This document shows, in pieces, positions 16,198-34,341 of a stretch of DNA of 64,000 nucleotides (its first letter is position 1; each line of letters opens with the position of its first letter). The translations under genes and the position numbers were made by a program. The stretch lies in contig CP054184.1 of NCBI GenBank assembly GCA_015709715.1, positions 434,001 through 498,000 on the forward strand. The letters are read 5' to 3'. The notes beneath the pieces are model-generated. The model did no database searches. It was not told the DNA's origin and saw nothing but the letters and a program-made list of their open reading frames with translations. Source of the DNA: Nitrospira sp. GTDB taxonomy: Bacteria > Nitrospirota > Nitrospiria > Nitrospirales > Nitrospiraceae.

Positions 16198-17374
16198 GGA
16201 AGGTCTGATTTATTCTCTTTGCATGATGTGCTAAGGGTAGCGCAGCACTGAACTGGAGGCGTGCCCCATGCAGCAACAGACGTTTGCCGAAGTCTCGTTT
16301 GAACAGTATCGCAAGCCCACCCGCCGGGAGCAGTTTCTCAACGAGATGAACCAGGTTGTTCCATGGGCGGAATTGGTAGCGGCGATCGAGCCGGTCTACC
16401 CCAAGGCCGAGGGCCCAGGGCGTCCGCCCGTGGGTGTCGAACGCATGTTGCGCCTCCATTGTCTGCAACAGTGGTTTAACCTGTCGGACCCGGCGGTGGA
16501 GGAAGCGCTGTACGACTCACACGCCATGCGGCAGTTCGTGGGGATTGATCTGGGCCGCGAGCCCGTACCGGATGAAACCACCATCTGTAAGTTTCGGCAT
16601 CTGCTGGAAGCCCACCACTTGGGCGCACAGCTCTTTGCGCGGATCGGCGCGTATCTGGCTGCCCACGGGCTGAAGGTCAGCCGGGGCACGATCGTGGATG
16701 CCACGATCATCAATGCGCCCAGTTCGACGAAGAATCGCCAGAAAGAGCGAGATCCGGAGATGCATCAGACCAAGAAGGGGAACCAGTGGTATTTCGGCAT
16801 GAAGGCGCATATTGGAGTGGACAGCCGGACGAAGCTGGTTCACTCAGTGGCGGCCACGGCGGCGAATGTCCATGACAGCCAGGTGTTGCCGGAGTTGCTG
16901 CATGGACAGGAGACACGAGTATGGGGCGATGCCGCCTATAGCGGGCAACGCGACATGATTCAGCACCATGCTCCCCATGCCAAGAGCTTCGTCCAGACGA
17001 AAGCCCATCGCCATCGGCCCTTGAGCGAGACGGAGCGGGCCCGCAATCGGACGAAGTCGAAGGTTCGTGCCAAAGTCGAGCATGTGTTCTTGGTGATCAA
17101 GCGGATCTTCGGGTGGGCCAAAGTGCGGTACCGGGGGCTCGCGAAGAATGCGCACTGGTTGTCTATCAGTTGCGGCTTGGCGAATCTGTATGTAGCACGC
17201 CGGCACTTGCTGGCGGCAGCCTAGCGGACGGGGGTGCGAACGGGGCGCGGGCCGCCTGACGGCGGAGGAATCCGAGAAAGGCGCTCTCGGACCAGCGGGT
17301 TCCCAGCTGATGGCCCGTCTTGATCCACCGAGAAACAGATTGCTTCGTGGAAACGCGAATTAATCAGACGTTCC
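16198..17374 (+). mobile_element. IS5-family insertion sequence, copy 1 (1177 bp)
   Basis: Ends are GGAAGGTCTGATT and, read inward from the right, GGAACGTCTGATT; the similarity continues for about 26 bp. The 4-bp direct repeat TTAT flanks it at 16194-16197 and 17375-17378. One transposase gene is carried. A second copy of identical length, encoding an identical transposase, lies in the opposite orientation at 28522-29698. Confidence 0.93.
16268..17224 (+). CDS. IS5-family transposase (copy 1)
   Basis: The 318-residue transposase starts 8 bp after a GGAGG motif. An N-terminal DUF772-like region (RPPVGVERMLRLHCLQQWFN) precedes the DDE core: Asp in GTIVDATIINAPSS, then KAHIGVDSRTKLVHS, Asp in VWGDAAYSGQ and Glu in VRAKVEHVFLVIKRIFGW. 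The protein is full length and identical to copy 2, so at least the coding sequence appears intact. It catalyses cut-and-paste movement of the element that splits hsdS. Confidence 0.95.
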   Translation: MQQQTFAEVSFEQYRKPTRREQFLNEMNQVVPWAELVAAIEPVYPKAEGPGRPPVGVERMLRLHCLQQWFNLSDPAVEEALYDSHAMRQFVGIDLGREPVPDETTICKFRHLLEAHHLGAQLFARIGAYLAAHGLKVSRGTIVDATIINAPSSTKNRQKERDPEMHQTKKGNQWYFGMKAHIGVDSRTKLVHSVAATAANVHDSQVLPELLHGQETRVWGDAAYSGQRDMIQHHAPHAKSFVQTKAHRHRPLSETERARNRTKSKVRAKVEHVFLVIKRIFGWAKVRYRGLAKNAHWLSISCGLANLYVARRHLLAAA

Positions 17375-17378
17375 TTAT

Positions 17379-18416
17379 CTTAAGGCAGTGGCATCGGTTG
17401 ATGACAAACATGCCGACTGCGTGTACTCGACGGGGTTCGCCATACTTCGCGCTCGTGTCGAACAGCTCAGACCGGAATTCCTCAAATGGCTTATGCTCAA
17501 TGAGTTGCTCATCCAGGCGGTAGAGTCTCATTCTGAGGGGCTTAGTTATCCAGCAATCAATGCAGCGGAATTGATAAATCTGAAAACTATAGTGCCGAGC
17601 TTATGTGAGCAAACGCGAATAGCATTAATCCTCGATCGCGCAACCTCCCGCATCGATGCCCTCATCGCCAAGAAGACTGAATTTATCGAACTCCTGACCA
17701 AGAAGCGCCAGGCCCTGATTACGCATGCCGTGACAAAAGGGCTGAACCCGAAGGCCGAGATGAAAGATTCAGGGGTGGAATGGATTGGAGGGGTGCCAAA
17801 GGGTTGGTCCGTCTGTAAATTGAGTTACCGGTACTATGTGGAGCTTGGAAAGATGCTTGACGAAAAAAGAATCACCGGTAGTCATCCCATCCCGTACCTT
17901 CGAAACAAGGATGTTCAGTGGGGTAGCATTAATACCGCCGATCTCCCGGTTATGGATATTCCACCGAATGAAATCGATCGCTATACAATCCAGAATGGCG
18001 ACCTTCTCGTGTGCGAAGGAGGAGATGTCGGGCGAGCTGCGATTTGGCGTGGTGACAGCAACGTTATTGGATACCAAAAAGCACTGCATCGTCTTCGAGC
18101 GGTCTCAGGCGACAAAGATTATGTCGAGTTTTACTTCTATGTTTTATCTGCTGCGAAGACAAATGGGGTATTCAGTGAAAGTGATAATAGGTCAACCATT
18201 TCACACTTGCCTGCAGAAAAATTCCGAGAGTACCGCTTCCCATTTCCGCCTTTCGCCGAACAGAAAGCCATTGCTGATGAACTCACAAAGCACTCAGAAC
18301 GCATTGATACCATGATCAAAAAAACTCAAGACAGTATCGGTCTTCTCTATAAACGCCGTTCTGCTCTGGTCACCGCTGCCGTCACCGGCCAAATCGATCT
18401 CCGGGAGCCCGCATGA
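17379..18416 (+). pseudogene. hsdS: hsdS specificity subunit, 3' fragment
   Basis: This piece carries the rest of the first target-recognition domain, the conserved central helix (RIDALIAKKTEFIELLTKKR), the second recognition domain (KDSGVEWIGGVPKGWSVCKL onward) and the C-terminal helix (TMIKKTQDSIGLLYKRRSAL). A GTG at 17388 could allow separate translation of 342 residues. Truncated HsdS halves are known to be able to dimerise in some type I systems, so partial function with altered specificity cannot be excluded. The stop overlaps the hsdR start as ATGA. Confidence 0.88.
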
Positions 18417-21400
18417 ATAACACGGCCCATCAGGAACGACATTTCGAGGAATACATTGTCTCCAAGCTGAAAGCCCAAGGCTGGAACGTTGGGGATTCGA
18501 AGGGCTATGACACGGAACGCGCCCTGTATCCCGATGATCTAATTGGCTGGCTGAAAGCATCCGGTCAAGACGACAAATGGACCAAGTTCCAAAAGGACAA
18601 TCGTGAGCGGGCGATTGACGCGCTCATGGATCGACTGGACAACGCGCTGGAGACTCATGGGACTATTCACGTGCTCCGCAGAGGGTTCTCCATCGCTGGG
18701 TGCGGCCATCTGGATCTTTCCGAGGCAGCTCCAGAAGACGCGCGGAATAAGACCATCCTCAAGCGTTACGCCGCCAATATTCTGCGCGTGGTCCCACAAC
18801 TCAAGTACCATCCTTCCCGTGAACTGGCCATTGATCTGGGTTTGTTTATTAATGGGATCCCGGTCGCCACCGTCGAACTGAAAACCGACTTCACCCAGTC
18901 GGCCGAAGCGGCGATGGACCAATATCGCACCGACCGCCTTCCATTTGATCCGAAGACGAAACGCCGCGAACCACTCTTAACGTTCAAGCGAGGTGCGATC
19001 GTCCATTTTGCCATGTCCGATTCCGTGATTCAGATGACGACCAAACTCGATGGTCTGAACACTTACTTTCTTCCGTTCAACCAGGGGCACAACGATCATG
19101 CTGGCAACCCGCCGCGGCCTGACGGCGAATACCCCGTCGCCTACTTCTGGGAATCAGTGTGTGATCGTGATGCCTGGTTGCGTGTCTTTCACAGTTTCGT
19201 CTACGTCGAAAAGAAAGACGTCGCCGACCTGAAAGGAAAGTGGTCCAAAAAGGAGACCCTGATCTTCCCCCGGTACCACCAATGGTCCGCCGTCAACAAG
19301 ATGATTGCTGACGCCAAAAAGCATGGGCCTGGGATGCAATATCTCATCGAGCATAGTGCGGGATCCGGCAAAACGAGTACGATTTCATGGACCGCACACG
19401 ATTTGGTGAAATTGCGTCGCAACAATGGCGAGGCGATTTTCAACAGTGTCATTATCGTCACCGATCGTACCGTTTTGGATAGTCAACTCCAGGAGGCCGT
19501 CAAACAGATCGATCATCAGTTTGGCGTCATTGCCGCAATTGATCGTCAGAAATCCAGCCAATCTAAGAGCGATCAGTTAACTGAGGCGCTTCTCGCTGGC
19601 ACGCCGATTATTGTGGTTACCATTCAGACCTTCCCTTACGCCATGGAGGCGATCGTCACCCAGAGCAAGCTGAAGGATAAGAGCTTCGCGGTGATCATTG
19701 ATGAAGCCCATGCCTCGCAAACTGGGACAACTGCGGCGAAGCTTCAAGCGGCTCTCGTGATGGGTGGCAAAGGAGCACTCGGATCTCTGACAGTGGAAGA
19801 ATTGCTCACCGAACTTCAAAACTCTCGATCGCGCCCTAAAAATATCAGCTACTTCGCTTTTACCGGGACGCCGAAGCATAGCACGTTGATGTTATTTGGC
19901 CGACCTGGCGATCCATCCCGCCCGGCGTCAGAAGCTAACCTTCCTGAATCCTTCCATCGCTACCCGATGCGCCAAGCCATCGAGGAGGGTTTTATTCTTG
20001 ACGTCCTTTCAGGGTACGTTCCGTACAAGACAGCCTTTAACCTCGCAAAGCAGATTGAGGATCTCAATCGAGTGAGCGGCAAAGCAGCCAAGCGGGCACT
20101 CGCACAATGGATGGCACTGCACCCCACAAATGTGACCCAAAAAGTACAATTCATTATTGAACACTTCAGTAACAATGTGGCTCACCGCTTGAACGGGAAA
20201 GCCAAGGCCATGATTGTCACGAGTTCTCGACCGGCAGCGGTACGCTATAAGAAGAGTTTCGATGCCTATATCCAGCAGCATCCGGAATACGCAGGTATTC
20301 GTTCTCTGGTTGCGTTTTCTGGAAAAGTGACCGGAAAACAGGTTCTACATGCTGATGATGAACGGATGGGCGGCGAAGCGTTCATTGTGGATGACGGCGA
20401 GGAATTCACCGAGATCAGCATGAATCCAGGCGTCTCCGAGCATGATCTCCGGATCGCATTTGAACGACCTGAATATCGCGTGATGTTAGTGGCAGATAAA
20501 TTCCAGACTGGCTTCGATCAGCCCAAGTTGGTTGCCATGTACATCGACAAAAAGATCGCCAACGATGTAGAGATCGTCCAGACGTTCTCACGTCTGAACC
20601 GCAACGCTCCTGGAAAAGACCAGGTGTTTATTATTGATTTTGTGAACGAACCGAACACGGTAAGGGCGGCCTTTGCCAAATATGATCTTGGCGCACAAAT
20701 TGACGAGATCCAGGATGCCAACGTTGTCTACGACATGAAAGACCAGCTTGATGGCCAGCATCTATATGAAGTTGCCGACCTCGAGTCATTCAAAACGGCC
20801 CGCTTCAGCACCCTCCACGACATCGTTAACGCCAAAGAACCACAGCACAAAGCACTCTATGCTGCCACGGATCGTCCGACCCGCCTCTTCAATGAACGAC
20901 TCAAGGCCCTATGGGAGAGTGTGAAGACATTGGAGACTGCTTACGAGAAGGCTCGAAAGCAGGGCAATAAAGATGGGATGCACGCTGCCGATCACCAGCG
21001 CAAAGACGTTGGTGACCAACTCAAGGTCCTGATGAGCTTCAAAACGGGACTGGGACGGTTTTGCCGTACCTATGGGTATGTGGCCCAGCTGATCGAATTC
21101 GGTGATCCGGATTTGGAGAATTTTGCAGCGTTCGCAAAATTGCTTCAGAAGCGGCTCGACAGTGAGCCTCATGAAAACGTGGATCTGAAGGGTATTGTTC
21201 TTACTGGTTATGATATTCGAGCTAACGACCAGCCGCGCGATGATGGTCAAGAGACTCCAATCATCCACCCTATCGGCCCGGGAGGACAGTCACGAACAGG
21301 AGATGATCCAGAGTATGTTCGCGAGATTATCGAACGTTTGAATCGCTTGTTTGGTGAGGCGACTCCGCTTCGAGACCAAGCGACTTTCGTGAATCACGTC

Positions 21401-21670
21401 GTGGCGATTGCAAAGGAAAATGATGTTGTGGTCGCCCAGGTGGAGAACAACACCCGCGAACAAGCACTAAAGGGCAACCTCCCTGGGGCAGTCCAGCAGG
21501 CTGTCGTTCGTGCGCTCAGTTCGCACCAGGCATTGGCTACCCTTGTGCTCAAATCTGACAAGCAGGCCATGTCGGGGCTGATTGAAATAATTTATGATCT
21601 TGTCCGAAATCATCAGACCATCAACCTAGATCACCTGAATCCTAGCCACACCACACATCCCAATAGTTGA
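18413..21670 (+). CDS. hsdR: Type I restriction endonuclease subunit R (HsdR)
   Basis: The 1085-residue protein has the usual HsdR order. The N-terminal nuclease domain contains the Asp and Glu-x-Lys residues (ELAIDLGLFINGIPVATVEL followed by K). Then come a superfamily 2 helicase domain with Walker A (EHSAGSGKTSTISW) and DEAH box (AVIIDEAHASQTG), the second RecA domain (AMIVTSSRPAAVRYK; VADKFQTGFDQPKL; FSRLNRNAPGK) and a helical C-terminus. It translocates DNA and cuts unmethylated targets in an R2M2S complex. The start overlaps the hsdS stop. Its stop is 5 bp from the stop of the convergent tnsD. Confidence 0.95.
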   Translation: MNNTAHQERHFEEYIVSKLKAQGWNVGDSKGYDTERALYPDDLIGWLKASGQDDKWTKFQKDNRERAIDALMDRLDNALETHGTIHVLRRGFSIAGCGHLDLSEAAPEDARNKTILKRYAANILRVVPQLKYHPSRELAIDLGLFINGIPVATVELKTDFTQSAEAAMDQYRTDRLPFDPKTKRREPLLTFKRGAIVHFAMSDSVIQMTTKLDGLNTYFLPFNQGHNDHAGNPPRPDGEYPVAYFWESVCDRDAWLRVFHSFVYVEKKDVADLKGKWSKKETLIFPRYHQWSAVNKMIADAKKHGPGMQYLIEHSAGSGKTSTISWTAHDLVKLRRNNGEAIFNSVIIVTDRTVLDSQLQEAVKQIDHQFGVIAAIDRQKSSQSKSDQLTEALLAGTPIIVVTIQTFPYAMEAIVTQSKLKDKSFAVIIDEAHASQTGTTAAKLQAALVMGGKGALGSLTVEELLTELQNSRSRPKNISYFAFTGTPKHSTLMLFGRPGDPSRPASEANLPESFHRYPMRQAIEEGFILDVLSGYVPYKTAFNLAKQIEDLNRVSGKAAKRALAQWMALHPTNVTQKVQFIIEHFSNNVAHRLNGKAKAMIVTSSRPAAVRYKKSFDAYIQQHPEYAGIRSLVAFSGKVTGKQVLHADDERMGGEAFIVDDGEEFTEISMNPGVSEHDLRIAFERPEYRVMLVADKFQTGFDQPKLVAMYIDKKIANDVEIVQTFSRLNRNAPGKDQVFIIDFVNEPNTVRAAFAKYDLGAQIDEIQDANVVYDMKDQLDGQHLYEVADLESFKTARFSTLHDIVNAKEPQHKALYAATDRPTRLFNERLKALWESVKTLETAYEKARKQGNKDGMHAADHQRKDVGDQLKVLMSFKTGLGRFCRTYGYVAQLIEFGDPDLENFAAFAKLLQKRLDSEPHENVDLKGIVLTGYDIRANDQPRDDGQETPIIHPIGPGGQSRTGDDPEYVREIIERLNRLFGEATPLRDQATFVNHVVAIAKENDVVVAQVENNTREQALKGNLPGAVQQAVVRALSSHQALATLVLKSDKQAMSGLIEIIYDLVRNHQTINLDHLNPSHTTHPNS

Positions 21671-21675: not shown

Positions 21676-23058
21676 TCACGATATCCGACGACCGGTTTCG
21701 CCATCATAATTCCTAACATTAATTACGCCTTCCTTGGAGGGCATTGTCGTAACAGGATTCAGCGTGTGGCGCGTAGGTAATCCCAGCCGCGCTGCCTGAC
21801 GCTTGATGGTTGCAAAACACACCCCTAGACGTACTCCCATCTCTCTGAACTCAATCGTTGGGTCCATCCACAATCGTCGTAGAGTCTTATCCCAGTCTCG
21901 GCCCCAGCTTCTCACCTTCCCAATTCGGAACATATCTTCTGGTCGTTCATCTGGACCTCGTCTCACATAGGTAAACAGGCATGTCGGACATGAAAACGTT
22001 CCAAGTGGTACGCCACCAACTGGCGAGCGCGTAACCTGACACGAAGGAATGATCATACGTTGAAAATGGTCGGAGGCGCGATTTAAACAGGGCCATGGCC
22101 CTGAACCGAATGGGTGTGATTTGATTTTTGTCTGTAAAAACTCTGAAACTGAATATCCCAGCCAATGAATAACCAGCAAGTGCTGCAGAGGATGCACCAT
22201 CCGTATGCGAGAGGCATAAAACATCCGGACAAGCCAATTATTTCGATCCGGGCCGCCGATGATGCAGTGCACGCTGCCCAGGAACTTCCTTGAGTAAAAG
22301 TTCTGGAGCTCATTTATAAGATGGTTCCTCCGCAGACGATTGCCCCAGGTCGCCAAACCTTTAGCTTGGAGCAAGGTGAAGTATCGGTCGCGAAGTTCCG
22401 CCGGATCGACACCATTGCCAGGATTGTTCAGAATCCATTGGCAATCACAAGCGAGTCTTAGTTTGTGACGATCCATACCTACCGCTTCGGATCTTCTGGT
22501 TGACTGTCTTATTCCGTCCTCAGCTGATACCAGGGCTCGCCACTGAGCTCGCATCAGCGATGGGACTGAACTATTCTGAAGCGGAACTCCATGCAGGGGG
22601 CAGATATCTATGACAGGTAATTGGTGCATTCTATGCCAGTATCGAAATCCGAATTGTTCGCGGTCCTCGTCAGCGCATGTTCTGCAGTAACGCACCCACG
22701 GCGGCAAAGGCATGTGACTCGCATGAAGTCCCGCTAACACCTCCGCTCTATTGCCGCTTGCTGAACGCATGGCATTACGGAGAAAACTGACTCTTTCTGG
22801 AGACCAAAAACAGCTAACAAATGGCAATAGGGTGTGATGGTCCATCAAATAATTTGCCGTAAGGCTATGGCCTGGCGGAAGCATCGAGAGAAGATGATCG
22901 AGGCGACTAGGAAGAAAGTTGAGATTGATTGGGTTCAGAGAGCCTGTAAGCTCGTGAAGCAGCTTTAGGCGTCCAGGATACTGCACTCTTTGGCCATATC
23001 TGGCAAAGATACTGTAGAGGGTTTCATCCGGCTGAGGCTGCACAAAGAAACCGAGCAT
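21676..23058 (-). CDS. tnsD: TnsD/TniQ-family target-site selector, full length
   Basis: The 460-residue protein begins with the TniQ signature (PDETLYSIFARYGQRVQYPG), then a zinc finger formed by YCRTCADED and ICPLHGVPL around YWHRMHQLP. After residue 290 it keeps the longer TnsD C-terminal region: HPLQHLLVIHWLG, a second zinc site FSCPTCLFTYVRR, and repeats of the type GKVRSWGRDWDKTLRRLW with a final helix-turn-helix (MGVRLGVCFATIKRQAARLG). Such a protein binds a specific chromosomal site and recruits TnsC. It is the last gene of the tns operon, 6 bp after the short tniQ. Confidence 0.88.
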   Translation of the reverse strand: MLGFFVQPQPDETLYSIFARYGQRVQYPGRLKLLHELTGSLNPINLNFLPSRLDHLLSMLPPGHSLTANYLMDHHTLLPFVSCFWSPERVSFLRNAMRSASGNRAEVLAGLHASHMPLPPWVRYCRTCADEDREQFGFRYWHRMHQLPVIDICPLHGVPLQNSSVPSLMRAQWRALVSAEDGIRQSTRRSEAVGMDRHKLRLACDCQWILNNPGNGVDPAELRDRYFTLLQAKGLATWGNRLRRNHLINELQNFYSRKFLGSVHCIIGGPDRNNWLVRMFYASRIRMVHPLQHLLVIHWLGYSVSEFLQTKIKSHPFGSGPWPCLNRASDHFQRMIIPSCQVTRSPVGGVPLGTFSCPTCLFTYVRRGPDERPEDMFRIGKVRSWGRDWDKTLRRLWMDPTIEFREMGVRLGVCFATIKRQAARLGLPTRHTLNPVTTMPSKEGVINVRNYDGETGRRIS

Positions 23059-23064
23059 GGGAGG

Positions 23065-23955
23065 TTAAGCCAGTGGCATATGTAGGAATCTCATCATGAC
23101 GAGGTGTTCTAGGGGGTGATAATTAGGCCCACCAAGGACTCTGTTTACCAACTTCCGCATATCATTTGAATAGGCGCTGAACGATAGTTGGTGAAGTAGG
23201 TTTGAGGTATAAAACCCCGTTATCGCCTGGCCTAGTTTATCGGTCGAAAGCCTATCATTCCAAATAAACTCTGTGGACTCAAGCTTAGTTCGATACTGAA
23301 AGCGAAGACCAGACAGCTGGATTAGTACGCCTTCCTCCACGATTCGTCTGGCATCATTGGCAAATCCTAACAAATGCCCATTGGCGGACCTGCTCGTTCT
23401 GCCTGTGTTCATCGTAGTAGTTCTGGTCTTGGCACTTACAAGGGATGCCCCCTGCGCCCCTACTTTACTCTCCATAAGGTGGCACTCGTGCTTCGTGCAA
23501 AGAAGCACGCCAGGAATTTGATGCAGGCGATGCCAATATGGTTCTCCATATAGAGACACATCTTCCTTGACACATTCATCGCAAAATCGCAGGTACTGGG
23601 GACAATGCTGTCGATACGTTATCATTCCGACGGCCCGGTACAAGACCGTAGCGGGGGAATCTCCAAGTGCCGCAATAATATGCCGTGCTTTCTCGGGAGA
23701 CCGCGTGCTGACATAGAATGGGAAAAGAGTATGTCGATAGAGCAGCTCCTCTAGGGTTATTCCACTATTACTTGGGAGCTGGCTTACAAGACGGTTTAGC
23801 TGTCCTGGCACATCGTAAGCCACTCGACTGCAGCGATCACCAAACAGATCAGAAATTGCGCTCATCCGAGCAGGATATCGAAATGTATCTGCATAGCGAG
23901 CGCACGCACTCGATAACAGCTCATCTGGATATAAATTAGGAAACCACCCAATCAT
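23065..23955 (-). CDS. tniQ: Short TniQ-family protein
   Basis: The 296-residue protein has the TniQ start (LYPDELLSSACARYADTFRY), the HTLFPFY segment and the zinc finger (RFCDECVKED, YWHRLHQIPGVLLCTKHE). It stops at HPLEHLVMMRFLHMPLA, the point that matches about residue 295 of the neighbouring 460-residue TnsD, so the whole DNA-binding C-terminus is missing. Short TniQ proteins next to a TnsD are known from some CRISPR-associated Tn7-like elements, where TniQ docks on the guide complex. It may alternatively be a simple truncation. Spacing is 27 bp after tnsC and 6 bp before tnsD. Confidence 0.85.
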   Translation of the reverse strand: MIGWFPNLYPDELLSSACARYADTFRYPARMSAISDLFGDRCSRVAYDVPGQLNRLVSQLPSNSGITLEELLYRHTLFPFYVSTRSPEKARHIIAALGDSPATVLYRAVGMITYRQHCPQYLRFCDECVKEDVSLYGEPYWHRLHQIPGVLLCTKHECHLMESKVGAQGASLVSAKTRTTTMNTGRTSRSANGHLLGFANDARRIVEEGVLIQLSGLRFQYRTKLESTEFIWNDRLSTDKLGQAITGFYTSNLLHQLSFSAYSNDMRKLVNRVLGGPNYHPLEHLVMMRFLHMPLA

Positions 23956-23982
23956 GATGAAAGGACGTCCGCATCCATTTAG

Positions 23983-25371
23983 TTAGGCAGCTTTCTTGAC
24001 CTTGCTCTGTTTCGCCTTCTTTTTTTGACGCGCTTTCCGCTGATCTGTTCTTCCACTTGAGGATTGCTCAGCCGTAGGCCTTTTATCGTCGCTATTTTTC
24101 TGAACAACTTTAATTTTTCTGCTTTCTCGCGCCAAAAATTGGTCCAAATCGATCGGAGCAACGTCTTCCATTTCCATCAACCGTCCTCGATCCTTTCGCC
24201 TTAAGGCATCAAGAAAAGGCTCGGCCTGTCTCAGCAAATCTTTTGCAACGGACCTGATTATTCCGGAGGTAATTTGCTCTTTCCCTGCATCGATAGCGCG
24301 CACCTGAGCCGCAGTAAAGACCTTTACGATATAGTCGGTAACTCCCTGAGTGACATCGTACAACGTGCTGCGCATTTCAGACGAAAGTGCCACAGGTTTC
24401 TTCACATACTGATGTTGAAAGAGCGCCTCACAGAGGAGCTGATAGTCACTACTATCTTCGAGCCAGTTGTCCCAAATTATTTCGCCTTCAGTTCCCCCCG
24501 CACGACGAACTTGCATCATATATTTTCCAAGCACCTTCATGGCATGGTAGGTTCCAACCATTACGACCGGAATTCCTATGGTATTCACTAATTCCACAAA
24601 GAAATTCAGAAGACGTTCATGACCACCACTTCGTGCGGCATTCAGGAACTGGATCTCATCAATCACCAACAGGCCCAGCGCTTGCACGCTGGCAACTGTG
24701 GCCATCGCCCGGCCTAGTTGCTCGGCAGTTTCCCCTTTATACTGCTCCTCATACTTAGTCCCTAGCAGGGCATCCATCTCACTAAAAAAGTTATTGCATA
24801 GCTCTTTCAGTGAAGCGCCATCAGATGGACATGACACAATCAGCCATGGCACTTGTTGAAGAATCAGTGGCTGCCCATTATACCTACTATGGACGATAAC
24901 CTGCGGATAAAGCCCCTGTAGAATCCCCACAAGAGATGTTGTCTTCCCCATTCCCGACATACCAATGAGTGACAATCCTAATGGTGCCGTTTGCAGCGAT
25001 GGCGAGGTTCGCAACCCAGGCGTGAAAAGCTGACTATTTCCTCCGGTACTGCTTTGGCGACGCTTAGGGCATGGATTTCTAAGTAGATACCCCGTTCGAA
25101 GGCTTTGAGCAAGACGCCGTTCTAAGTCGAAATGTAAAGAGAGTGGCTGGAACAATGTGCGAATTTGAGAGGCAAGCACACATCGCCGTGTGTGGCTCGG
25201 CAAGCGACGAATCTTGGCGGGTAAGTCAGGAGCATAGCTTAAATGCTCAACAATATCCTCTTCCGTATAATTGGGTGGTAGTGCTTCAATTAATGGATTT
25301 CCGTCGAAATCAGGCACCCCTGTCTTCTGATAGTTTGCAGGACACGTCGCACCCTTGTTAAATCCGCTCAT
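23983..25371 (-). CDS. tnsC: TnsC-like AAA+ ATPase transposition regulator
   Basis: The 462-residue protein carries Walker A (LIGMSGMGKTTSLVGIL, near residue 140) and Walker B (GLLVIDEIQFLNAA), and the sensor region VVMVGTYHAMKVL. TnsC proteins bind target DNA in an ATP-dependent way and link the target selector to the TnsAB transposase. The N-terminal CVLASQIRTLFQPLS region precedes the ATPase, and the C-terminal 70 residues are very lysine- and arginine-rich (KARQKKKAKQSKVKKAA). The start overlaps the tnsB stop as ATGA, showing translational coupling. Confidence 0.9.
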   Translation of the reverse strand: MSGFNKGATCPANYQKTGVPDFDGNPLIEALPPNYTEEDIVEHLSYAPDLPAKIRRLPSHTRRCVLASQIRTLFQPLSLHFDLERRLAQSLRTGYLLRNPCPKRRQSSTGGNSQLFTPGLRTSPSLQTAPLGLSLIGMSGMGKTTSLVGILQGLYPQVIVHSRYNGQPLILQQVPWLIVSCPSDGASLKELCNNFFSEMDALLGTKYEEQYKGETAEQLGRAMATVASVQALGLLVIDEIQFLNAARSGGHERLLNFFVELVNTIGIPVVMVGTYHAMKVLGKYMMQVRRAGGTEGEIIWDNWLEDSSDYQLLCEALFQHQYVKKPVALSSEMRSTLYDVTQGVTDYIVKVFTAAQVRAIDAGKEQITSGIIRSVAKDLLRQAEPFLDALRRKDRGRLMEMEDVAPIDLDQFLARESRKIKVVQKNSDDKRPTAEQSSSGRTDQRKARQKKKAKQSKVKKAA

Positions 25372-27596
25372 GGTCTACCTTCCCTTCGGACTCTGTTGAT
25401 TGTCTTACTGCGGATCATGTTGGACCGGTCTGGCACCTTCACATCTTCGTCGTTCTCGTCCACGAGCTCTTTAGCATTGGCGGAGCGGTATTTTCTTCGT
25501 TCCTGCCGCTGCTCTTCCTTGCGATTCTTTTTTATTCCCTTCAAGCTCGCCGATTTCGACTCAGTGATTGGCGATTCCTTTGTCTTTTGTACAGCTTTGG
25601 TGATGACATCCTTTATCTCCGCCCTCGAATCAGCGAGGCGCTGCTCTTCATTTGAGCGCGAGCGTTCCCTCTGTTGCTTTTTCACAGCAAAATAATCGAT
25701 CACGTCATCCCAATGTCGATCGGCAAAGGCATGATCGCGTCCAAGCAAGTGGCATTCCTCAAGCCGCCCGTTTGGAAGCCTCACGAAAATGCTGCTGGTA
25801 TTTTCTTCGTGGTAGCTAACTCTGATCGATTCCGTGCCGTTCACGCGAGCCCTATCAAACCAATGTCCTCGTATTGCCGATTGGCAACTGTAAGACAAAC
25901 CCTCAAAGATAATGCCCTTCGGTGTGATGCGCGCTTGAGCACTGGGAAGTAGATTTGGCAAGAGTTCGGGTGACACTTCTCGCAGATGGCTACGATTACC
26001 TGCTCCCCAATGCCATAGATCCACTGGATACGGCGGCACGTCGTCCTCGATCATGAACTCCTCGTAGGGATACTCTTTTATCGGAAGTACATTGTTATGC
26101 TGATAAACGAGTTGAACGAACAACTGTTTGAACTCGAGCAAGGTCAACTTCGCATCCAGCCGGTAGTCTTCCCCCATCAAGGTTCGCTCTTCACGTACTG
26201 CCCCTGGCGTCCAACTCAACCCACGTTCATTGATCAACTTAAACTGTCGTTCCACTAGGCCTTTCCAGTCCGCTCGATAAGGCGCAGTGTTGTCCAACTG
26301 AATGTCAAGCCCCAACACAAGATCATCTGATGCATAACTCAAGTATTCTTTGCCGCGATCTGCGCGAATGGTCTCTGGCAAGTAATGGCAGGGCCATTCC
26401 TCCTCTGTTATCGGCCTAGCTAGCCCAATGGATTTGCAATATTCCGTTTTATCTTCCGCAGCATTCTTGATTGCTGCTATCGCACCACGCCATGAGGCGG
26501 GTCTAAGACCAATGTAGAAACCAACGATCAGACGACTAAAGACATCGATGACGACATAGATGATCGGTCGTCCGATGATCCTTCTCCGGGACAGTTGGCT
26601 CACGAGATAGACGTCGGCTACAGTGGAGTCAATTAGAAAACACGAACCAGGCCCAAAGGCACGCTTGGTTGGGCTGCCCACCATTCCTCTGTATTTGAGC
26701 TTGACGATGCGCTGGCCTTTTCGTCTCGACAAGTCGGCGATCCAGCGATCGCTATGACGATACCAATAGTGGGCCTGTCCTTTGGTTGGGCGCCGAGAAG
26801 GGGGGAGCAGGATTGGGGCGAGTACGCGGCTACGCAGCTCATATTCGCCGGCATTGAAATACTCTTCGGTCAGCCTTCTAAATGCTTCAGCGAAGGATAT
26901 CCCTTTATGCTTGGCGAATATCTTTCGAAGCCCACGCAGGGTTCGATCTCGCATCTCGATAGTCATATTGGGGCCGGTTTGCTCGTTCGTAGATCTGCTT
27001 AAGTCACTAGGCCGTCCCCTCTTAATGCATTCTGTCCGCTTCTCCTCTTTTTCAGATCGCAGTCGTGTCTTTCCCTTTCCGCCGCACAGGTGACGGAAAG
27101 GCAAAAATGCATTCTGAACTTGCCCCGCTTGCCACCAGCGATGGAGGTATTTGTAGATGACAGGCTTTTTCCATCTATGGATTTGAATGAGCTCATTAAC
27201 GATCTTGCTTCGTTCTTCCCGATCAAGGATGTTGATCCCTTCGACATACTGCCCCAATACTTGCCACACCTTGTCTCGCTCGTCGCGATGCGCTTCTGGC
27301 AGATCCTTTTCCTTCCATAAAAGACGATGAACGGGCAAACCACCCTCAGCACCATCTGTCTTATCAGTTGATGGCTTTTGCGTATATAGATCTTCCAAAA
27401 CGATCTTGGCCGTACCATTATCAACTGACGATTGCAGAACGTCGGCCTCGATGTCGTACGGCATACCAATCGGCTTCTTGTTATTGACGGGCATTGGATA
27501 GAGTGAGGCCCAATTCCGCTCCAGATCGATACGGAGTACCCGGTCTAGTCGACTATCCTCCACCCACTGAATAAGCGAGTTCTTAGCGATACCCAT
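25368..27596 (-). CDS. tnsB: TnsB-like DDE transposase
   Basis: The 742-residue protein fits TnsB of Tn7 (about 700 residues). After an N-terminal DNA-binding region it has the integrase core: Asp in SCFLIDSTVADVYLVS, the VIDVFSRLIVGFYIG strand, Asp in ETIRADRGKEYLSY and Glu in RADWKGLVERQFKLIN. A Mu-transposase-type C-terminal beta domain (GIIFEGLSYSCQSAIRGHWF) follows, then a charged tail for contact with TnsC. It joins the 3' ends of the element to target DNA. Its ATG overlaps the tnsA stop (TAATG). Confidence 0.93.
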   Translation of the reverse strand: MGIAKNSLIQWVEDSRLDRVLRIDLERNWASLYPMPVNNKKPIGMPYDIEADVLQSSVDNGTAKIVLEDLYTQKPSTDKTDGAEGGLPVHRLLWKEKDLPEAHRDERDKVWQVLGQYVEGINILDREERSKIVNELIQIHRWKKPVIYKYLHRWWQAGQVQNAFLPFRHLCGGKGKTRLRSEKEEKRTECIKRGRPSDLSRSTNEQTGPNMTIEMRDRTLRGLRKIFAKHKGISFAEAFRRLTEEYFNAGEYELRSRVLAPILLPPSRRPTKGQAHYWYRHSDRWIADLSRRKGQRIVKLKYRGMVGSPTKRAFGPGSCFLIDSTVADVYLVSQLSRRRIIGRPIIYVVIDVFSRLIVGFYIGLRPASWRGAIAAIKNAAEDKTEYCKSIGLARPITEEEWPCHYLPETIRADRGKEYLSYASDDLVLGLDIQLDNTAPYRADWKGLVERQFKLINERGLSWTPGAVREERTLMGEDYRLDAKLTLLEFKQLFVQLVYQHNNVLPIKEYPYEEFMIEDDVPPYPVDLWHWGAGNRSHLREVSPELLPNLLPSAQARITPKGIIFEGLSYSCQSAIRGHWFDRARVNGTESIRVSYHEENTSSIFVRLPNGRLEECHLLGRDHAFADRHWDDVIDYFAVKKQQRERSRSNEEQRLADSRAEIKDVITKAVQKTKESPITESKSASLKGIKKNRKEEQRQERRKYRSANAKELVDENDEDVKVPDRSNMIRSKTINRVRREGRP

Positions 27597-28438
27597 TAGG
27601 CGGCCGTCACGTATGAGGCGAGGGGTGTGTCAACTGTGTGCGTCAAGGAGAGAGGCCGGCGGGGGTTATAGGGCTTGTGCAGGTCTATGGGCCACTCTCG
27701 ATTGGCAATTAAATGCCTCGAGACCTTTAAACATGTTCCCACCCGATACCCCAAATTGTGGTCCAGGACAGTGCACAGCTTAACGAGGCTCGTCTTCCGC
27801 CTGAGCACTCCCGGTCTCAGTAGTCTTGCAATTCTTTTCACCTCTCGAGCCGAAAGGGGATAGAGCGACTCTAGTCGCCTATATGGACGGATGATTTCCA
27901 AGTTTCCTACATATGGAAGCGACGCCTCCTCCTCCGTCAATATCACGTGTCGGACAAGAGTGGGCATTGAATGCCAGTAGTCGCGTTCTATGGCTAATTT
28001 GTTCCGAACTCGTGGCCTAATGGCATCCTTCATGTATTTGACCGCGATGGCGACATCCCATTGTCGGCATCCACGCTTGAAGGTCACCAGAAAATCCGTC
28101 GTCATAACCGTCGGCACCCCTGTCCTAGGATAATAAGGATGACGAATGCCGAGATTATCGGCAATAACAAGAGTCCTAGCCCTATCGAGTGGGTATTGCT
28201 CTCTGATGTCCCACACATTGGGGAGGTCTTCGAGGAGCAAAAGTACTTGTCGCTCGAGCATGCTAAATGTGTGATGAATTCGATCGCAGAAAAGACTCTT
28301 TACTCGGCTCGATAAACCATAGGACGAAAATCTTCTTACGGTGAGCCACGGCTTATAAGAATCGCGAGAGCCACTTCCGAGTCCCTCCTCATACCATTTA
28401 GTGATCTGATCTTCAGAGATTGGAGTCCGGCGAGCCAT
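27596..28438 (-). CDS. tnsA: TnsA-like transposon endonuclease
   Basis: From the ATG at 28438 (MARRTPISEDQITKWYEEGL) the product is 280 residues, against 273 for TnsA of Tn7. The restriction-enzyme-like N-terminal fold shows the expected residues: Glu in FSMLERQVLLLLE, Asp in VMTTDFLVTF and Lys in VAIAVKYMKDA. A C-terminal winged-helix domain follows (LYPLSAREVKRIARLLRPG). TnsA cuts the 5' ends so that the element moves by cut and paste. The frame is open further upstream into the IS5 copy, but that extension is foreign. It is the first gene of the operon, so one transposon end should lie just above it. Confidence 0.92.
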   Translation of the reverse strand: MARRTPISEDQITKWYEEGLGSGSRDSYKPWLTVRRFSSYGLSSRVKSLFCDRIHHTFSMLERQVLLLLEDLPNVWDIREQYPLDRARTLVIADNLGIRHPYYPRTGVPTVMTTDFLVTFKRGCRQWDVAIAVKYMKDAIRPRVRNKLAIERDYWHSMPTLVRHVILTEEEASLPYVGNLEIIRPYRRLESLYPLSAREVKRIARLLRPGVLRRKTSLVKLCTVLDHNLGYRVGTCLKVSRHLIANREWPIDLHKPYNPRRPLSLTHTVDTPLASYVTAA

Positions 28439-28521: not shown

Positions 28522-29698
28522 GGAACGTCTGATTAATTCGCGTTTCCACGAAGCAATCTGTTTCTCGGTGGATCAAGACGGGCCATCAGCTGGGAACCCG
28601 CTGGTCCGAGAGCGCCTTTCTCGGATTCCTCCGCCGTCAGGCGGCCCGCGCCCCGTTCGCACCCCCGTCCGCTAGGCTGCCGCCAGCAAGTGCCGGCGTG
28701 CTACATACAGATTCGCCAAGCCGCAACTGATAGACAACCAGTGCGCATTCTTCGCGAGCCCCCGGTACCGCACTTTGGCCCACCCGAAGATCCGCTTGAT
28801 CACCAAGAACACATGCTCGACTTTGGCACGAACCTTCGACTTCGTCCGATTGCGGGCCCGCTCCGTCTCGCTCAAGGGCCGATGGCGATGGGCTTTCGTC
28901 TGGACGAAGCTCTTGGCATGGGGAGCATGGTGCTGAATCATGTCGCGTTGCCCGCTATAGGCGGCATCGCCCCATACTCGTGTCTCCTGTCCATGCAGCA
29001 ACTCCGGCAACACCTGGCTGTCATGGACATTCGCCGCCGTGGCCGCCACTGAGTGAACCAGCTTCGTCCGGCTGTCCACTCCAATATGCGCCTTCATGCC
29101 GAAATACCACTGGTTCCCCTTCTTGGTCTGATGCATCTCCGGATCTCGCTCTTTCTGGCGATTCTTCGTCGAACTGGGCGCATTGATGATCGTGGCATCC
29201 ACGATCGTGCCCCGGCTGACCTTCAGCCCGTGGGCAGCCAGATACGCGCCGATCCGCGCAAAGAGCTGTGCGCCCAAGTGGTGGGCTTCCAGCAGATGCC
29301 GAAACTTACAGATGGTGGTTTCATCCGGTACGGGCTCGCGGCCCAGATCAATCCCCACGAACTGCCGCATGGCGTGTGAGTCGTACAGCGCTTCCTCCAC
29401 CGCCGGGTCCGACAGGTTAAACCACTGTTGCAGACAATGGAGGCGCAACATGCGTTCGACACCCACGGGCGGACGCCCTGGGCCCTCGGCCTTGGGGTAG
29501 ACCGGCTCGATCGCCGCTACCAATTCCGCCCATGGAACAACCTGGTTCATCTCGTTGAGAAACTGCTCCCGGCGGGTGGGCTTGCGATACTGTTCAAACG
29601 AGACTTCGGCAAACGTCTGTTGCTGCATGGGGCACGCCTCCAGTTCAGTGCTGCGCTACCCTTAGCACATCATGCAAAGAGAATAAATCAGACCTTCC
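28522..29698 (-). mobile_element. IS5-family insertion sequence, copy 2 (1177 bp, inverted)
   Basis: The same 1177-bp element as at 16198-17374, in reverse orientation. Ends are GGAACGTCTGATT on the low-coordinate side and the complement of GGAAGGTCTGATT on the high side. A 4-bp duplication CTAG flanks it (28518-28521 and 29699-29702). It separates the tns operon from the CBASS operon and interrupts the tnsA leader region. Confidence 0.93.
28672..29628 (-). CDS. IS5-family transposase (copy 2)
   Basis: The 318-residue protein is identical to the transposase at 16268-17224, with the same DDE residues and ribosome binding site. Transcription runs toward tnsA, so read-through or an outward promoter could drive the tns operon. 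Confidence 0.95.
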   Translation of the reverse strand: MQQQTFAEVSFEQYRKPTRREQFLNEMNQVVPWAELVAAIEPVYPKAEGPGRPPVGVERMLRLHCLQQWFNLSDPAVEEALYDSHAMRQFVGIDLGREPVPDETTICKFRHLLEAHHLGAQLFARIGAYLAAHGLKVSRGTIVDATIINAPSSTKNRQKERDPEMHQTKKGNQWYFGMKAHIGVDSRTKLVHSVAATAANVHDSQVLPELLHGQETRVWGDAAYSGQRDMIQHHAPHAKSFVQTKAHRHRPLSETERARNRTKSKVRAKVEHVFLVIKRIFGWAKVRYRGLAKNAHWLSISCGLANLYVARRHLLAAA

Positions 29699-29810: not shown

Positions 29811-30332
29811 TTATGATAAGCGTTGTCCCGACCCCAGCTGTATCTCTTCAACGAGTCGTGAGGAGTAGGTACCATCATGCCAACCGACCCATAATCCATC
29901 AGCATGGTTAGCGGTCCCTACGATGACCAAGACGAACCCGACGAGCTCATGTGTGGATTTCTTGAAGGAGTCAGCAATTCTACTCAAATCTTCGCTGGAA
30001 GGTTCAGGGTGCCTCTGTGGATGTGTATGCCAATCACCGACATAGTGCAGGCCCTGCATGAAGCAGGCTTCTATATCACTGTTCTCCTTTCCACGATCAG
30101 GACGAAAAAAGTACCGTCCTCGACTGTCACTTGTATAGGGCCCCGTTGCTTTAGAGATTTCAATCTGCGAGGGAGACAGCTTTGCGAACAACTGTCCTCC
30201 CGCCTCAGCGCGCCATGACCAGCGCTGACGATGGCGCCGAAAGTGCTTGACCGCGTCTTCGGTGAAGAGAAGTGTGTGACCGGTCTCTGCAACCCGATAG
30301 CGGAGCGGCGGCCGACCTGTCATTTTTGGCAT
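29811..30332 (-). CDS. cap3: CBASS Cap3-like JAB/MPN deconjugating protease
   Basis: The protein has a JAB/MPN metalloprotease core: GGQLFAKLSP at the first strand, the zinc motif VGDWHTHPQRHPEPSSEDLS (His-x-His followed by Ser and Asp), and FVLVIVGTANH. In type II CBASS, Cap3 removes CD-NTase conjugates made by Cap2. The start chosen (ATG at 30332) has AGGAG 11 bp upstream. An alternative ATG at 30323 overlaps the cap2 stop as ATGA and one at 30359 is also open. It is the last gene of the CBASS operon. Confidence 0.9.
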   Translation of the reverse strand: MPKMTGRPPLRYRVAETGHTLLFTEDAVKHFRRHRQRWSWRAEAGGQLFAKLSPSQIEISKATGPYTSDSRGRYFFRPDRGKENSDIEACFMQGLHYVGDWHTHPQRHPEPSSEDLSRIADSFKKSTHELVGFVLVIVGTANHADGLWVGWHDGTYSSRLVEEIQLGSGQRLS

Positions 30333-32128
30333 AAAGGACAGTGCTCCTGTACTGGCCACGCTAAACGGTAGACTCGTTCACCTGTGCCTATCTCGCCATA
30401 CCGGGCGATCCAGGCTTCGCTCCATTGGGCACCATGGCTGGTCAAAGCTTCCGAAGAACCAACCCAGAGTCGGTGGTGGGATCGTGCGATTGTTCCTTCA
30501 AGCACATCCAGGGCAGTCGAAGCAATCATGGCGTTGATGGGATTTGTTGCGATAGAACCAAACGGTTGAAAAAATCCGCCGCAGCCTGGTTCTCGTTGCG
30601 GTATCGGCGTCACGGACCATGAGATGGGCGAGTGCTGAAAGGTGCCTAATCCATCCATTCCACATGTGAGGCAGCCCCCCATATCAAGCACCGCCACCGC
30701 GTGGCCAGCACAGGCGTAGGCCTCGCTCCATCCGAAGACCACGGGAGGAAAGTGCGGACTCCGTCTAGCAAGCAGATTCAAGGCAGCCTCGGAAGCCCAA
30801 TCTCCTGTCGTCGACACGATGACATCGCATTCCCTAAAGAGTTGCTCCTTCTGCTGATACACGTCTTGCCATCGACGACCAGCCGCGACGATATCCAACT
30901 CCGGAAACCGCTGTTGCAGTTCCTTGCCGATCGCCTCAGCCTTGTTCGTTCCAACCTGGCCCGGACCACCAAGGATATGCCTCCCTACATTGTCCCATGA
31001 CAGTGTATCGTGATCCACAAGCACCAGTCGTCCGACTCCACCTTGTGCAAGCAACTCTGCGATTTGTGAACCGAGCGCACCGCAGCCAATGAGCATGATC
31101 CGCTTGTGCACGTGGCGAGCTGCCTTCGCATCGCCTCCTCGGGCATGGATCCATGCCCGATCACACCGCTGGACTCTTCGCTTTTCCAAGACACCGGGCG
31201 ACGCTAAATATCGTCTGGCAATGACAGCCGGAGGAATCTTTCCGGAGCGAAAGCCTCGAGTTAGCGACGAACGAGCATTGTGGTGAGGGATCGAATGGTT
31301 CAGTGGCAACGACCAGGCACCGGCTAGAACAGAGTCCTGGCCAACATCAAATCCAAACACGACGGGAAAACCTTCTTGGCTCGACTTGATGACCTTCACG
31401 AGGACATCAACACTGTGCTGCCCTAGTTTCTTCGCGATCTCTCGAAGAAAGGTGTTATTGGCCGGGTATTGTTCTGGGTAGAGTGGTGCAGGAAGCCACA
31501 AGAAAATCCCGGAACTGAAGGAGAACCGACTGCCCGTAAATTCTCCCTTGAAATGCTCGAGCCAGGTCCTCCCCTTCTCTGCGGTCTCGGCCAATAAGAC
31601 GAATCGTTGGCCTTCCCAATAGGCAATGCTCCGAGTTGGTCCAACTGGCTTCAGTATGCTCCAGAACCGCTTAACCTTCGCGTCATTAAGGCCTGCGCCC
31701 CAGTAGCTGATGACTTCGGTGGCTAAATCCGCCCGATTGGAGCCGTCCAGACACTGGCGAATCAAGTCACGGGCGTTCTGGACCAAATGGTCGATAAGCC
31801 GCACATCCGTAGATATTTCAAAACCGGCGTGTTCCGGAAGGAGGCACAGCTTCCCGCTTTGTTCGACGTGCGGCCAGCTGAGGAAACGGTCTTGGCCAAC
31901 GAGAAAGATGCTGGGCAGCGAGAAGGGAAAGTGAAGATCGACGATGATGTCCAGTTCAAACGATTGGCCGTTGACCTCAGTCGAGATCCGCCATCCCCTA
32001 GATGGCGAACTAGACCGACCCAGTTCTGAGGAAGATAGCTCTCGGCCGGGAGGTGTGTGATTCTGAATATACGCAGCAAGTGCGGCTACGGCCTTTCGGT
32101 GCCAGGCCGCAAGCGGCCAATCAGGCAT
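30320..32128 (-). CDS. cap2: CBASS Cap2: E2-E1 ubiquitin-transfer-like fusion
   Basis: The first 140 or so residues form an E2-like domain with a candidate catalytic Cys in SGKLCLLPEHAG. The C-terminal half is a ThiF/E1 adenylation domain starting near residue 343: the nucleotide loop MLIGCGALGSQIAELL, then LVLVDHDTLSWDNVGRHIL, and a likely E1 cysteine in GCGGFFQPFGS. A CPLCQK end closes it. In known systems Cap2 links the C-terminus of the CD-NTase to a partner and so primes signalling. The gene overlaps the CD-NTase by 8 bp and cap3 by up to 40 bp, so the three products are translationally coupled. Confidence 0.93.
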   Translation of the reverse strand: MPDWPLAAWHRKAVAALAAYIQNHTPPGRELSSSELGRSSSPSRGWRISTEVNGQSFELDIIVDLHFPFSLPSIFLVGQDRFLSWPHVEQSGKLCLLPEHAGFEISTDVRLIDHLVQNARDLIRQCLDGSNRADLATEVISYWGAGLNDAKVKRFWSILKPVGPTRSIAYWEGQRFVLLAETAEKGRTWLEHFKGEFTGSRFSFSSGIFLWLPAPLYPEQYPANNTFLREIAKKLGQHSVDVLVKVIKSSQEGFPVVFGFDVGQDSVLAGAWSLPLNHSIPHHNARSSLTRGFRSGKIPPAVIARRYLASPGVLEKRRVQRCDRAWIHARGGDAKAARHVHKRIMLIGCGALGSQIAELLAQGGVGRLVLVDHDTLSWDNVGRHILGGPGQVGTNKAEAIGKELQQRFPELDIVAAGRRWQDVYQQKEQLFRECDVIVSTTGDWASEAALNLLARRSPHFPPVVFGWSEAYACAGHAVAVLDMGGCLTCGMDGLGTFQHSPISWSVTPIPQREPGCGGFFQPFGSIATNPINAMIASTALDVLEGTIARSHHRLWVGSSEALTSHGAQWSEAWIARYGEIGTGERVYRLAWPVQEHCPLCQK

Positions 32129-33143
32129 ATCTCTCCCCGCCTTCTCTCTTAACGGGAAATTGAGGCTGGTTGCCCGACGTCGTCAGAATCGTGGGCCCTT
32201 GCGTCTTTCCTTCGTCATCTAGGAATTTGTTAAAGAAGTTGGTATTGAATACCTTGCCCCACGCCTGAAGCGCTGCTTTCTTCGTGCAATCCCGATCGTG
32301 AAGAATTGCCAACCACTCCAAGGCCTGCTTCAGCTGGGTCCTTAGCTCAACCATACTTGCGTCTTCGGCAGTTTTTGTCAAAGCCTCATCGACCACTGGA
32401 TGCCGAACCGTCAGATCCCATTCCAATCGGGCATGGATGCCACGGATGGTTTCATAGAAACTGACATCCTCTCGTCCTGCCAGCGCATGATATTTTTCGC
32501 TGGCCAAGACTGAAAGGATAAAACCGCTGGGCATATTCCATGATTCACGGCTCTTCGCAAAGGCTTTCAGGAGTCGAACTTGGCGACGCAGCTGCTGTTT
32601 TTTCCCCTCTTCATCGGGACTATGCGTCTGCACTTGGGCGTCGAACCACTCGGTGACGGCCTTGGGATTAGATTGGCGCCATTCAACGCTTGCGAGTTCA
32701 AGATAGGTAGCTCCAAGAATCGAGATCATCTGCCGGTACACCGGAATGTCGACATTGTGCCCTTCCTCGTAGTACACCCGCACGCAGTTAGTCCGTACTT
32801 CGGGTTCCTTCTTGAACCGTGAGTCCTGCACCGCCTGGCAGACGACCTGGCGTACTTGCAAGGGGGTCCATTGCCCACCTTGAGAACCGTGCAAATCGTC
32901 TGCACTGAAGATGACACCATCGTCAATGTCATAGTCACTTTTGGGCTGCTGGATAATGGTCTCCATATCGTAGGAACCCTGAATCAGAAAACTAGTCGGT
33001 GTCAGACCATGCGAAGCTTTGAGACCGTTCGAGACGCGCTCTCTATTCGTGTTTCGATGATCACGCAGTTTTTCCTGTACGGCTTCTGACAGACGGACTT
33101 TCTCATCGTGGAATGTGAGTAACTCGTGCGAACAATCAGGCAT
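32121..33143 (-). CDS. CBASS CD-NTase (cGAS/DncV-like nucleotidyltransferase)
   Basis: From the ATG at 33143, which follows a GGAGG at 8 bp, the product is 340 residues. The active site is clear: GSYDMETIIQQPKSDYDIDD contains the GS motif and the first two metal-binding Asp residues, and GHNVDIPVY supplies the third. A helical domain follows (AFAKSRESWNMPSGFILSVL). On phage infection such enzymes make cyclic oligonucleotides. The C-terminus ends GGERYA; a small final residue suits Cap2-dependent conjugation. The layout is closest to the DncV-type enzymes that pair with patatin effectors. Confidence 0.92.
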   Translation of the reverse strand: MPDCSHELLTFHDEKVRLSEAVQEKLRDHRNTNRERVSNGLKASHGLTPTSFLIQGSYDMETIIQQPKSDYDIDDGVIFSADDLHGSQGGQWTPLQVRQVVCQAVQDSRFKKEPEVRTNCVRVYYEEGHNVDIPVYRQMISILGATYLELASVEWRQSNPKAVTEWFDAQVQTHSPDEEGKKQQLRRQVRLLKAFAKSRESWNMPSGFILSVLASEKYHALAGREDVSFYETIRGIHARLEWDLTVRHPVVDEALTKTAEDASMVELRTQLKQALEWLAILHDRDCTKKAALQAWGKVFNTNFFNKFLDDEGKTQGPTILTTSGNQPQFPVKREGGERYA

Positions 33144-33222
33144 ATGTGTTCCTCCATGACGAAATCTCGATGTAGGCAGCAAGTAGGCTAGACATCCAAG
33201 GCCCGCTCCTATCAAACGGGAA

Positions 33223-34311
33223 TCATTTCGACGGTAAAATGGCTGGCATGTCATGAAACAGGCCGTTCAAACACTCTCCCTGGCGATCTCCCACTCTCTG
33301 TGTCAGCCGGTACGCGAGGTCGGCATCTGTCTTACCCAGTTCGCTTAACACATCGAGAGCCTCTTCCGTGGCCTTGTCCAAAGCGAGATGGGCCACCTGG
33401 GACGGGGACGGAGGGGACTGCGGAAGACGGATGACGGTACAGGGCCGAGTGAGGTGTTTGGCAAGAAATTCCGCCATGAACTGGTACCCGGAAGACTGTG
33501 CGTCAAGAGCGACTGACAGGGCTCGTGATCCAAACTGCCATTCCACAATCCCCCAGGAGGTAGCATTTTTCTTGATTGGCTCTCCCTCGGGAGGTGCACA
33601 GGTGCCGACCGATAAAATCTCCACCGGTTGTCCTGGGGCTGCCGTCTCGAGTGCTTCTATCAAGCCAACGAGCACTGGGTTGTTGGCCCATAGACCACCA
33701 TCAACAAAAGTACGGGCATGGGCAGGATCGTCCGGATCAGGAATCTTGGCGATCGGCAAAAACATGGGAGCGGCGCTCGTAGCCAGACATAGATCAACCA
33801 GCCGATATTTGTCATCTCTCCGCTTGTTCGCCAGATGAGGCGTCTTAAAGACCCAGCTTTTCTGATTCCCCATATTGACCGTGGGAATACAAAGCGCAAC
33901 CTTCCGCAACTTGAAAACTTGCTCAAGCGTGAGATCGCCAAAAAACTCCCACAACGCCTGTTTCAACGTCTCTACGTCGCATGAGGCCTTCGAGGCATTC
34001 CTCCACCCCCACCTGACGAGGCTCGCAAACGTTGACGGCATTGGATCGATAAAGATCTTCGGTCCAAACTGTCGATAAAGGGTGATCAGCTGCTCCATTG
34101 GAACTCCCTTGGCAAGCCCACATGCCAGGATTCCCCCCGTACTGGTTCCAGTGATCAGATCAAATCCTTTGCCGATATCCAAGGACGCGACATCGCGTGA
34201 GCGCCCGAACCGAGCCGCCAAAGTCTGCAGCAAGACCGCTGTGTAGAGTCCCCGCATTCCTCCACCATCGAGGGCAAGAACGCGATATGGATGTGTGTGC
34301 TCGTTCGTCAT
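33223..34311 (-). CDS. capV: CBASS effector CapV: patatin-like phospholipase
   Basis: The patatin core is complete: the oxyanion loop LALDGGGMRGLYTAVLLQ near residue 15, the nucleophile elbow GTSTGGILACGLAKG near residue 55, and the catalytic Asp in FVDGGLWANNPVLVGL near residue 210. When activated by the cyclic nucleotide it degrades membrane phospholipids and kills the infected cell. The start at 34311 is an ATG; a GTG at 34323 would add four residues. It is the first CBASS gene, 79 bp ahead of the CD-NTase. Confidence 0.93.
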   Translation of the reverse strand: MTNEHTHPYRVLALDGGGMRGLYTAVLLQTLAARFGRSRDVASLDIGKGFDLITGTSTGGILACGLAKGVPMEQLITLYRQFGPKIFIDPMPSTFASLVRWGWRNASKASCDVETLKQALWEFFGDLTLEQVFKLRKVALCIPTVNMGNQKSWVFKTPHLANKRRDDKYRLVDLCLATSAAPMFLPIAKIPDPDDPAHARTFVDGGLWANNPVLVGLIEALETAAPGQPVEILSVGTCAPPEGEPIKKNATSWGIVEWQFGSRALSVALDAQSSGYQFMAEFLAKHLTRPCTVIRLPQSPPSPSQVAHLALDKATEEALDVLSELGKTDADLAYRLTQRVGDRQGECLNGLFHDMPAILPSK

Positions 34312-34341
34312 TGGTAACGCCACCGCGGCATCATTATTCGC

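Follow-up and report, generated by a model that had tools for sequence, protein, structure and literature searches.

We found that the tnsA–tnsB–tnsC–tniQ–tnsD operon in the stretch of Nitrospira DNA analysed here (the window; 64,000 nucleotides) belongs to a complete Tn7-like transposon of 45,091 bp, which is flanked by 5-bp target duplications (CTACG) and sits directly behind nrdJ. We hold with modest confidence that this is a dual TniQ–TnsD element in which TnsD homes to nrdJ and the short TniQ acts with a DNA-bound partner in a second target route. This two-route reading draws on the completeness of the element, with its matching duplications and opposite end arrays; on the presence of the same end at the nrdJ stop codon in three other genomes of the genus (G365, G123 and G347); on a short TniQ that is intact, under purifying selection, distinct from the neighbouring TnsD and modelled as a full TnsC-binding core; on the DNA-binding part that TnsD appears to add to such a core; on identical copies of a dual element at two unlike targets in Nitrospira moscoviensis; and on the same logic having been proposed for dual loci (PMC10293859).

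The five genes are intact, tightly packed open reading frames on the minus strand, with overlaps of 1 or 4 bp and gaps of at most 27 bp (Table 1), which confirms both the operon and the coupled or near-coupled starts noted in the preliminary description. A single operon with tnsA, tnsB, tnsC and a TniQ-family gene marks the element as Tn7-like, and having one selector longer than 400 aa and one clearly shorter makes it a dual TniQ–TnsD element. The match of TnsB to the Pfam rve domain was weak, and its assignment is confirmed by an orthologue in the related Nitrospira genome G365 (70–72% identity) and by cyanobacterial TnsB proteins (about 40%). Identity to the G365 proteins fell through TnsC and TnsA (Table 1) to 56% for TnsD and 49% for TniQ. 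Pfam and structure models agreed with the earlier assignment of one full TnsD and one core-only TniQ; the latter matched the Pfam TnsD domain only as a weak piece. We found no third selector gene in the operon, such as the TnsF that stands beside a TniQ in Tn6022, with the convergent hsdR lying 5 bp beyond tnsD, and no match to TnsE_C in the genome, although a control set was equally without a match.

Table 1. Features of the element and its attachment site, in window positions
Feature	Position	Strand	Details
hsdM (cargo)	13892..15910	+	Runs into the upstream hsdS fragment
hsdS (cargo), split by IS5	15907..18416	+	17388-18416 matches HsdS profiles from about position 105
IS5-family copy 1, inside hsdS	16198..17374	+	Target duplication TTAT
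hsdR (cargo)	18413..21670	+	Convergent with tnsD
tnsD	21676..23058	-	460 aa; Pfam TniQ 5.6e-20 and TnsD 4.4e-52; 6-bp gap from tniQ
Short tniQ	23065..23955	-	296 aa; predicted TnsC-binding core only; Pfam TniQ 9e-21; 27-bp gap from tnsC
tnsC, AAA+ regulator	23983..25371	-	462 aa; Pfam AAA_22 and TniB; 66% identity to G365; 4-bp overlap with tnsB
tnsB, transposase	25368..27596	-	742 aa; 1-bp overlap with tnsA
tnsA	27596..28438	-	280 aa; Pfam PF08722 and PF08721 (N and C domains); 64% identity to G365 TnsA
IS5-family copy 2, upstream of tnsA	28522..29698	-	Target duplication CTAG
Type II CBASS cargo (CapV phospholipase, cyclase, E1-E2, JAB)	29811..34323	-	Pfam, PADLOC
YjzC-like small protein	34342..34536	-	Pfam PF14168, E 0.0097, below its cut-off
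Four-cysteine protein	34694..34873	-	59 aa; phage Mu Com-like; just inside right end; no Pfam match
Right end	34900..34967	-	Starts TGTGGAGAAAAATTAAG, directly after nrdJ stop codon; three TnsB-site-like repeats
Target duplication CTACG	34968..34972		CGTAG on the nrdJ strand, includes the stop codon; repeated just before the left end
nrdJ, class II ribonucleotide reductase	34968..38504	-	Pfam; 3' end is the attachment site

Searching the element's own genome with its terminal 16-mer returned two one-mismatch matches, the right end and a site at G000:C1:423877, in opposite orientation and each flanked by CTACG. The second match is the left end, at window position -10123. The preliminary description had the operon right but could not take in the whole element, 10.1 kb of which, including the left end, lies outside the window. 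The right end holds three copies of a repeat of about 19 bp, one every 20 bp, and the left end has its second site 112 bp inward, as in G123. When a TnsB-site motif trained without the source genome was scanned over 84 kb and compared with shuffled sequence, the two left and three right sites ranked first on their strands. All five scored above the mean shuffle maximum (13.4) and four exceeded the highest shuffle maximum (16.5), the weakest scoring 14.4. The TGT...ACA ends, the arrays of TnsB-type sites and the 5-bp duplication are those of a Tn7-like element. A candidate left end had been sought between a DUF72 gene and hsdM (2806-13892), where CTACG-TGT occurs at 13723 without TnsB sites, and it was dropped once the real end was located. 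A right end upstream of tnsA, the place of an IS5 copy, was also considered and rejected.

The same end lies at the nrdJ stop codon in the source genome, G365, G123 and G347, indicating a constant insertion site downstream of a conserved gene. In G129 and G169, only the first 10–13 bases of this end remain at nrdJ. In G365, the element shares the tns gene order and carries a different cassette. There, tnsA stands at the end of contig C44 and a partial tnsA is followed by tnsB–tnsC–tniQ–tnsD on contig C21, and the matching tnsA halves suggest a single element split across the two contigs. In G123, a 13.95-kb element at nrdJ (L058:583-14534) is complete at both sides, with perfect, inverted ends and the target duplication CGTAA. 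This element, in which we found no match to the tns genes of the source element, reads as a non-autonomous relative with metal-efflux-like cargo. We also considered G402, in which DUF72 and dnaE genes adjoin nrdJ, as an empty site; the link is only partial because the left flank of the element is a type VI secretion locus. We found no earlier report of nrdJ as a Tn7 attachment site in the literature searched; this site is new here, as is the naturally occurring two-target situation in N. moscoviensis described below. Inside the element, after the four-cysteine gene, window positions 34600-34672 hold a terminator-like sequence that resembles one following nrdJ in genomes without the element. 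From this resemblance, the element may replace the nrdJ terminator that its insertion displaces.

In Tn7, the ends are bound by TnsB, excision is the work of TnsA and TnsB, and TnsC links the choice of target to the transposase. The same proteins would divide the work in this way here. The AlphaFold2 model of TnsD has a core that superposes on E. coli TnsD(1-318) with a Z score of 28.7 and, beyond it, a strand-rich, zinc-ribbon-like part and a helix-turn-helix; residues 383-427 gave Z 7.3 to the DNA-binding domain of GcrA. This C-terminal part would recognize the conserved 3' end of nrdJ, and the element would be placed right end first, directly behind the stop codon. Whereas the insertion site is seen directly in the ends, we infer that TnsD is its reader.

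The short TniQ model (pLDDT 89.8, pTM 0.89) matched TnsC-bound E. coli TnsD(1-318) with Z 25.6 over 288 residues, ahead of TnsD of 8v32 (Z 14.2) and the TniQ of a type I-B CRISPR-associated transposon (CAST; Z 12.8). The model thus presents the complete TnsC-binding core of Tn7 TnsD and nothing beyond, ending where the core ends, and its fold suggests that the short TniQ docks on TnsC, although likeness to Tn7 TnsD does not itself establish function. It would act as a TnsC-docking core without a DNA reader, recruiting TnsC to a second target marked by a DNA-bound partner, probably from the host or the target replicon. Serving a second target route is its most likely role.

The short TniQ is intact in the source genome and G365, at near-equal length (296 and 297 aa), and keeps its zinc ligands (C125, C128, C153 and H156). 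Between these genomes, pN was 0.33 versus a pS of 0.75 (pN/pS about 0.4), so the gene is under purifying selection. It shares only 28–30% identity with TnsD proteins (about 30% with the adjacent one) versus 49% with its G365 orthologue. When 104 TniQ/TnsD cores were placed in a tree, the two short TniQs formed one fully supported clade on a long stem and the two TnsDs another; the TniQ/TnsD split therefore predates both elements. The low identity to the adjacent TnsD, the orthologue and the purifying selection exclude a recent truncation of that gene, which the preliminary description had raised. A decaying, useless tnsD duplicate, as might be supposed from TniQ being the least conserved of the five proteins (49% versus 56–72% to G365), is very improbable given its intactness in both genomes, the pN/pS ratio, the retained zinc ligands and the confident full-core model.

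The operon had been described as lacking a CRISPR module, and this held. No CRISPR array was found in the window or the whole 45,091-bp element, nor was any 20-mer present three times in either; Rfam gave no match to a known structured RNA in the window and the left part of the element; and no cas match occurred among the element proteins scanned, a scan that covered only some Cas genes individually. Effector genes together with an array inside the element, as in CASTs of types I-B, I-D, I-F3 and V-K, were not found. In G365, which has the same five genes, the scanned stretches likewise held no array. The host's own Cas1 genes, at 31 kb and 3355 kb, are distant from the element and belong to loci that we read from gene order and repeats as probable type I-G and type II systems. 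We consider it improbable that the element is a former CAST whose TniQ once worked with a since-lost Cascade. A clade uniting the short TniQ with cyanobacterial TniQs from CRISPR-array loci was not rejected (AU p 0.24), and Cascade has been gained or lost repeatedly in one dual branch (PMC10293859). However, the tree does not draw that clade, the closest fold is Tn7 TnsD and not the I-B TniQ, selection on TniQ persists, and there was no array in the element and no cas match among those of its proteins that were scanned.

An account that we regard as rather unlikely, while giving it some weight, has both selectors acting jointly at the single nrdJ site, TniQ taking a second position on the TnsC ring and TnsD reading the DNA. 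The best structural match is itself a Tn7 complex (TnsC:TnsD(1-318):DNA, 7:2:1), so that two TniQ cores would fit one ring; the order tnsC–tniQ–tnsD is kept in related Nitrospira elements that pair a short with a long selector; and nrdJ is the only site known for the source-element family. By contrast, CASTs that carry this pair use each protein for a route of its own (PMC10293859, PMC11406308), and the N. moscoviensis pair occupies two unlike targets.

N. moscoviensis NSP M-1 carries two fully identical copies, about 42.3 kb each, of a dual element with tnsABC, a short TniQ of 378 aa and a TnsD of 597 aa (L152/L153; around 75–117 kb and at 4404802-4447060). One copy (target duplication ACTCC) lies directly behind a response-regulator gene, and a related element in G110 starts behind the same gene. 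The other, copy b (AGAAC), lies upstream of ppx, and the target flanks of the two copies showed no similarity beyond chance. The two sites fit two target routes, though they come from another family, which the TniQ/TnsD tree places at a distance; copy b could instead be a TnsD mistake. A Tn7-like transposon of N. moscoviensis is mentioned by Benler et al. (2021; PMC8649781) and may differ from this one. Counting against the two-route reading, no partner turned up, copies of the source-element family have been seen only at nrdJ, the short-TniQ lineage occurs in two genomes only, being absent from all others among the 175 of the family, and the N. moscoviensis family is distinct.

No partner of the short TniQ was found. 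The preliminary description had proposed HsdS, which we discount: hsdS is interrupted by an IS5 copy with its own target duplication (TTAT), and the G365 element has no relative of the source HsdS, HsdM or HsdR. The only non-tns genes found in common between these two elements encode the 59-aa four-cysteine protein, a possible regulator or selector partner, and the YjzC-like protein, both just inside the right end. Two other Nitrospiraceae dual elements have closely similar 179-aa proteins immediately after tnsD (L015:6453-6992 and L017:1003-1542), which are candidate accessory selectors. As a tentative possibility, the short TniQ may be partnered by a non-CRISPR, non-TnsE, non-TnsF selector supplied in trans (a host or plasmid protein, or a DNA structure), which would be an undescribed targeting route for Tn7-like elements.

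The CBASS cargo sits between the right end and tnsA, and hsdM runs into the upstream hsdS fragment. An SOS mutagenesis-like cassette, from G000:C1:430214 to window position 1007, also reads as cargo, with a LexA/S24-type repressor, a Y-family polymerase and a DnaE-type gene. An inversion between the two IS5 copies was ruled out by the separate duplication of each. The type I-G-like CRISPR repeat region of the host contains another copy of this IS5-family transposase (L179:9825-15224). Benler et al. (2021; PMC8649781) recorded Tn7-like elements in Nitrospirae and found CBASS and restriction systems to be common cargo.

Pairing of a short TniQ with TnsD outside CRISPR systems is already known from the literature, and the source element is a well-resolved new example. 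Faure et al. (2023; PMC10293859) counted 998 dual TniQ–TnsD loci, named the small TniQ that lacks an extension a hallmark of elements equipped with additional selectors, and noted that for numerous short TniQs no partner can be identified and that these might recruit selectors supplied in trans. The idea of a different TniQ partner is less surprising for having been stated there. Many Tn7-like elements carry a short TniQ that lacks a known partner, and the discovery of such a partner would uncover a new way in which transposons are aimed; in the source element, both the boundaries and the attachment site are fully defined. Like the dual transposons without CRISPR of that study, it has a short TniQ and a TnsD of more than 400 aa beside tnsC and no identifiable partner for the former, but it lies at nrdJ and has a cargo cassette between the right end and tnsA. 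With E. coli Tn7 it shares TnsABC and TnsD, a 5-bp target duplication, cores that superpose at Z 25–29, and insertion behind a conserved gene. The adjacent TnsB sites at the right end, spaced sites at the left end and right end adjoining the attachment gene follow the Tn7 pattern (PMC11406308). It differs in the lack of a TnsE match (shared with the control set), in having a TniQ core as its second selector, in targeting nrdJ instead of glmS and in inserting at the stop codon itself. CASTs of types I-B and I-D likewise combine a homing TnsD with a short TniQ, whereas the source element has no detected Cascade or array and a TniQ fold nearer Tn7 TnsD than I-B TniQ. The N. moscoviensis NSP M-1 element shares tnsABC, a short TniQ, a TnsD and the genus, and differs in its distant selectors, its site behind a response-regulator gene and its two copies, whose identity in unlike sites makes the two-route question directly testable.
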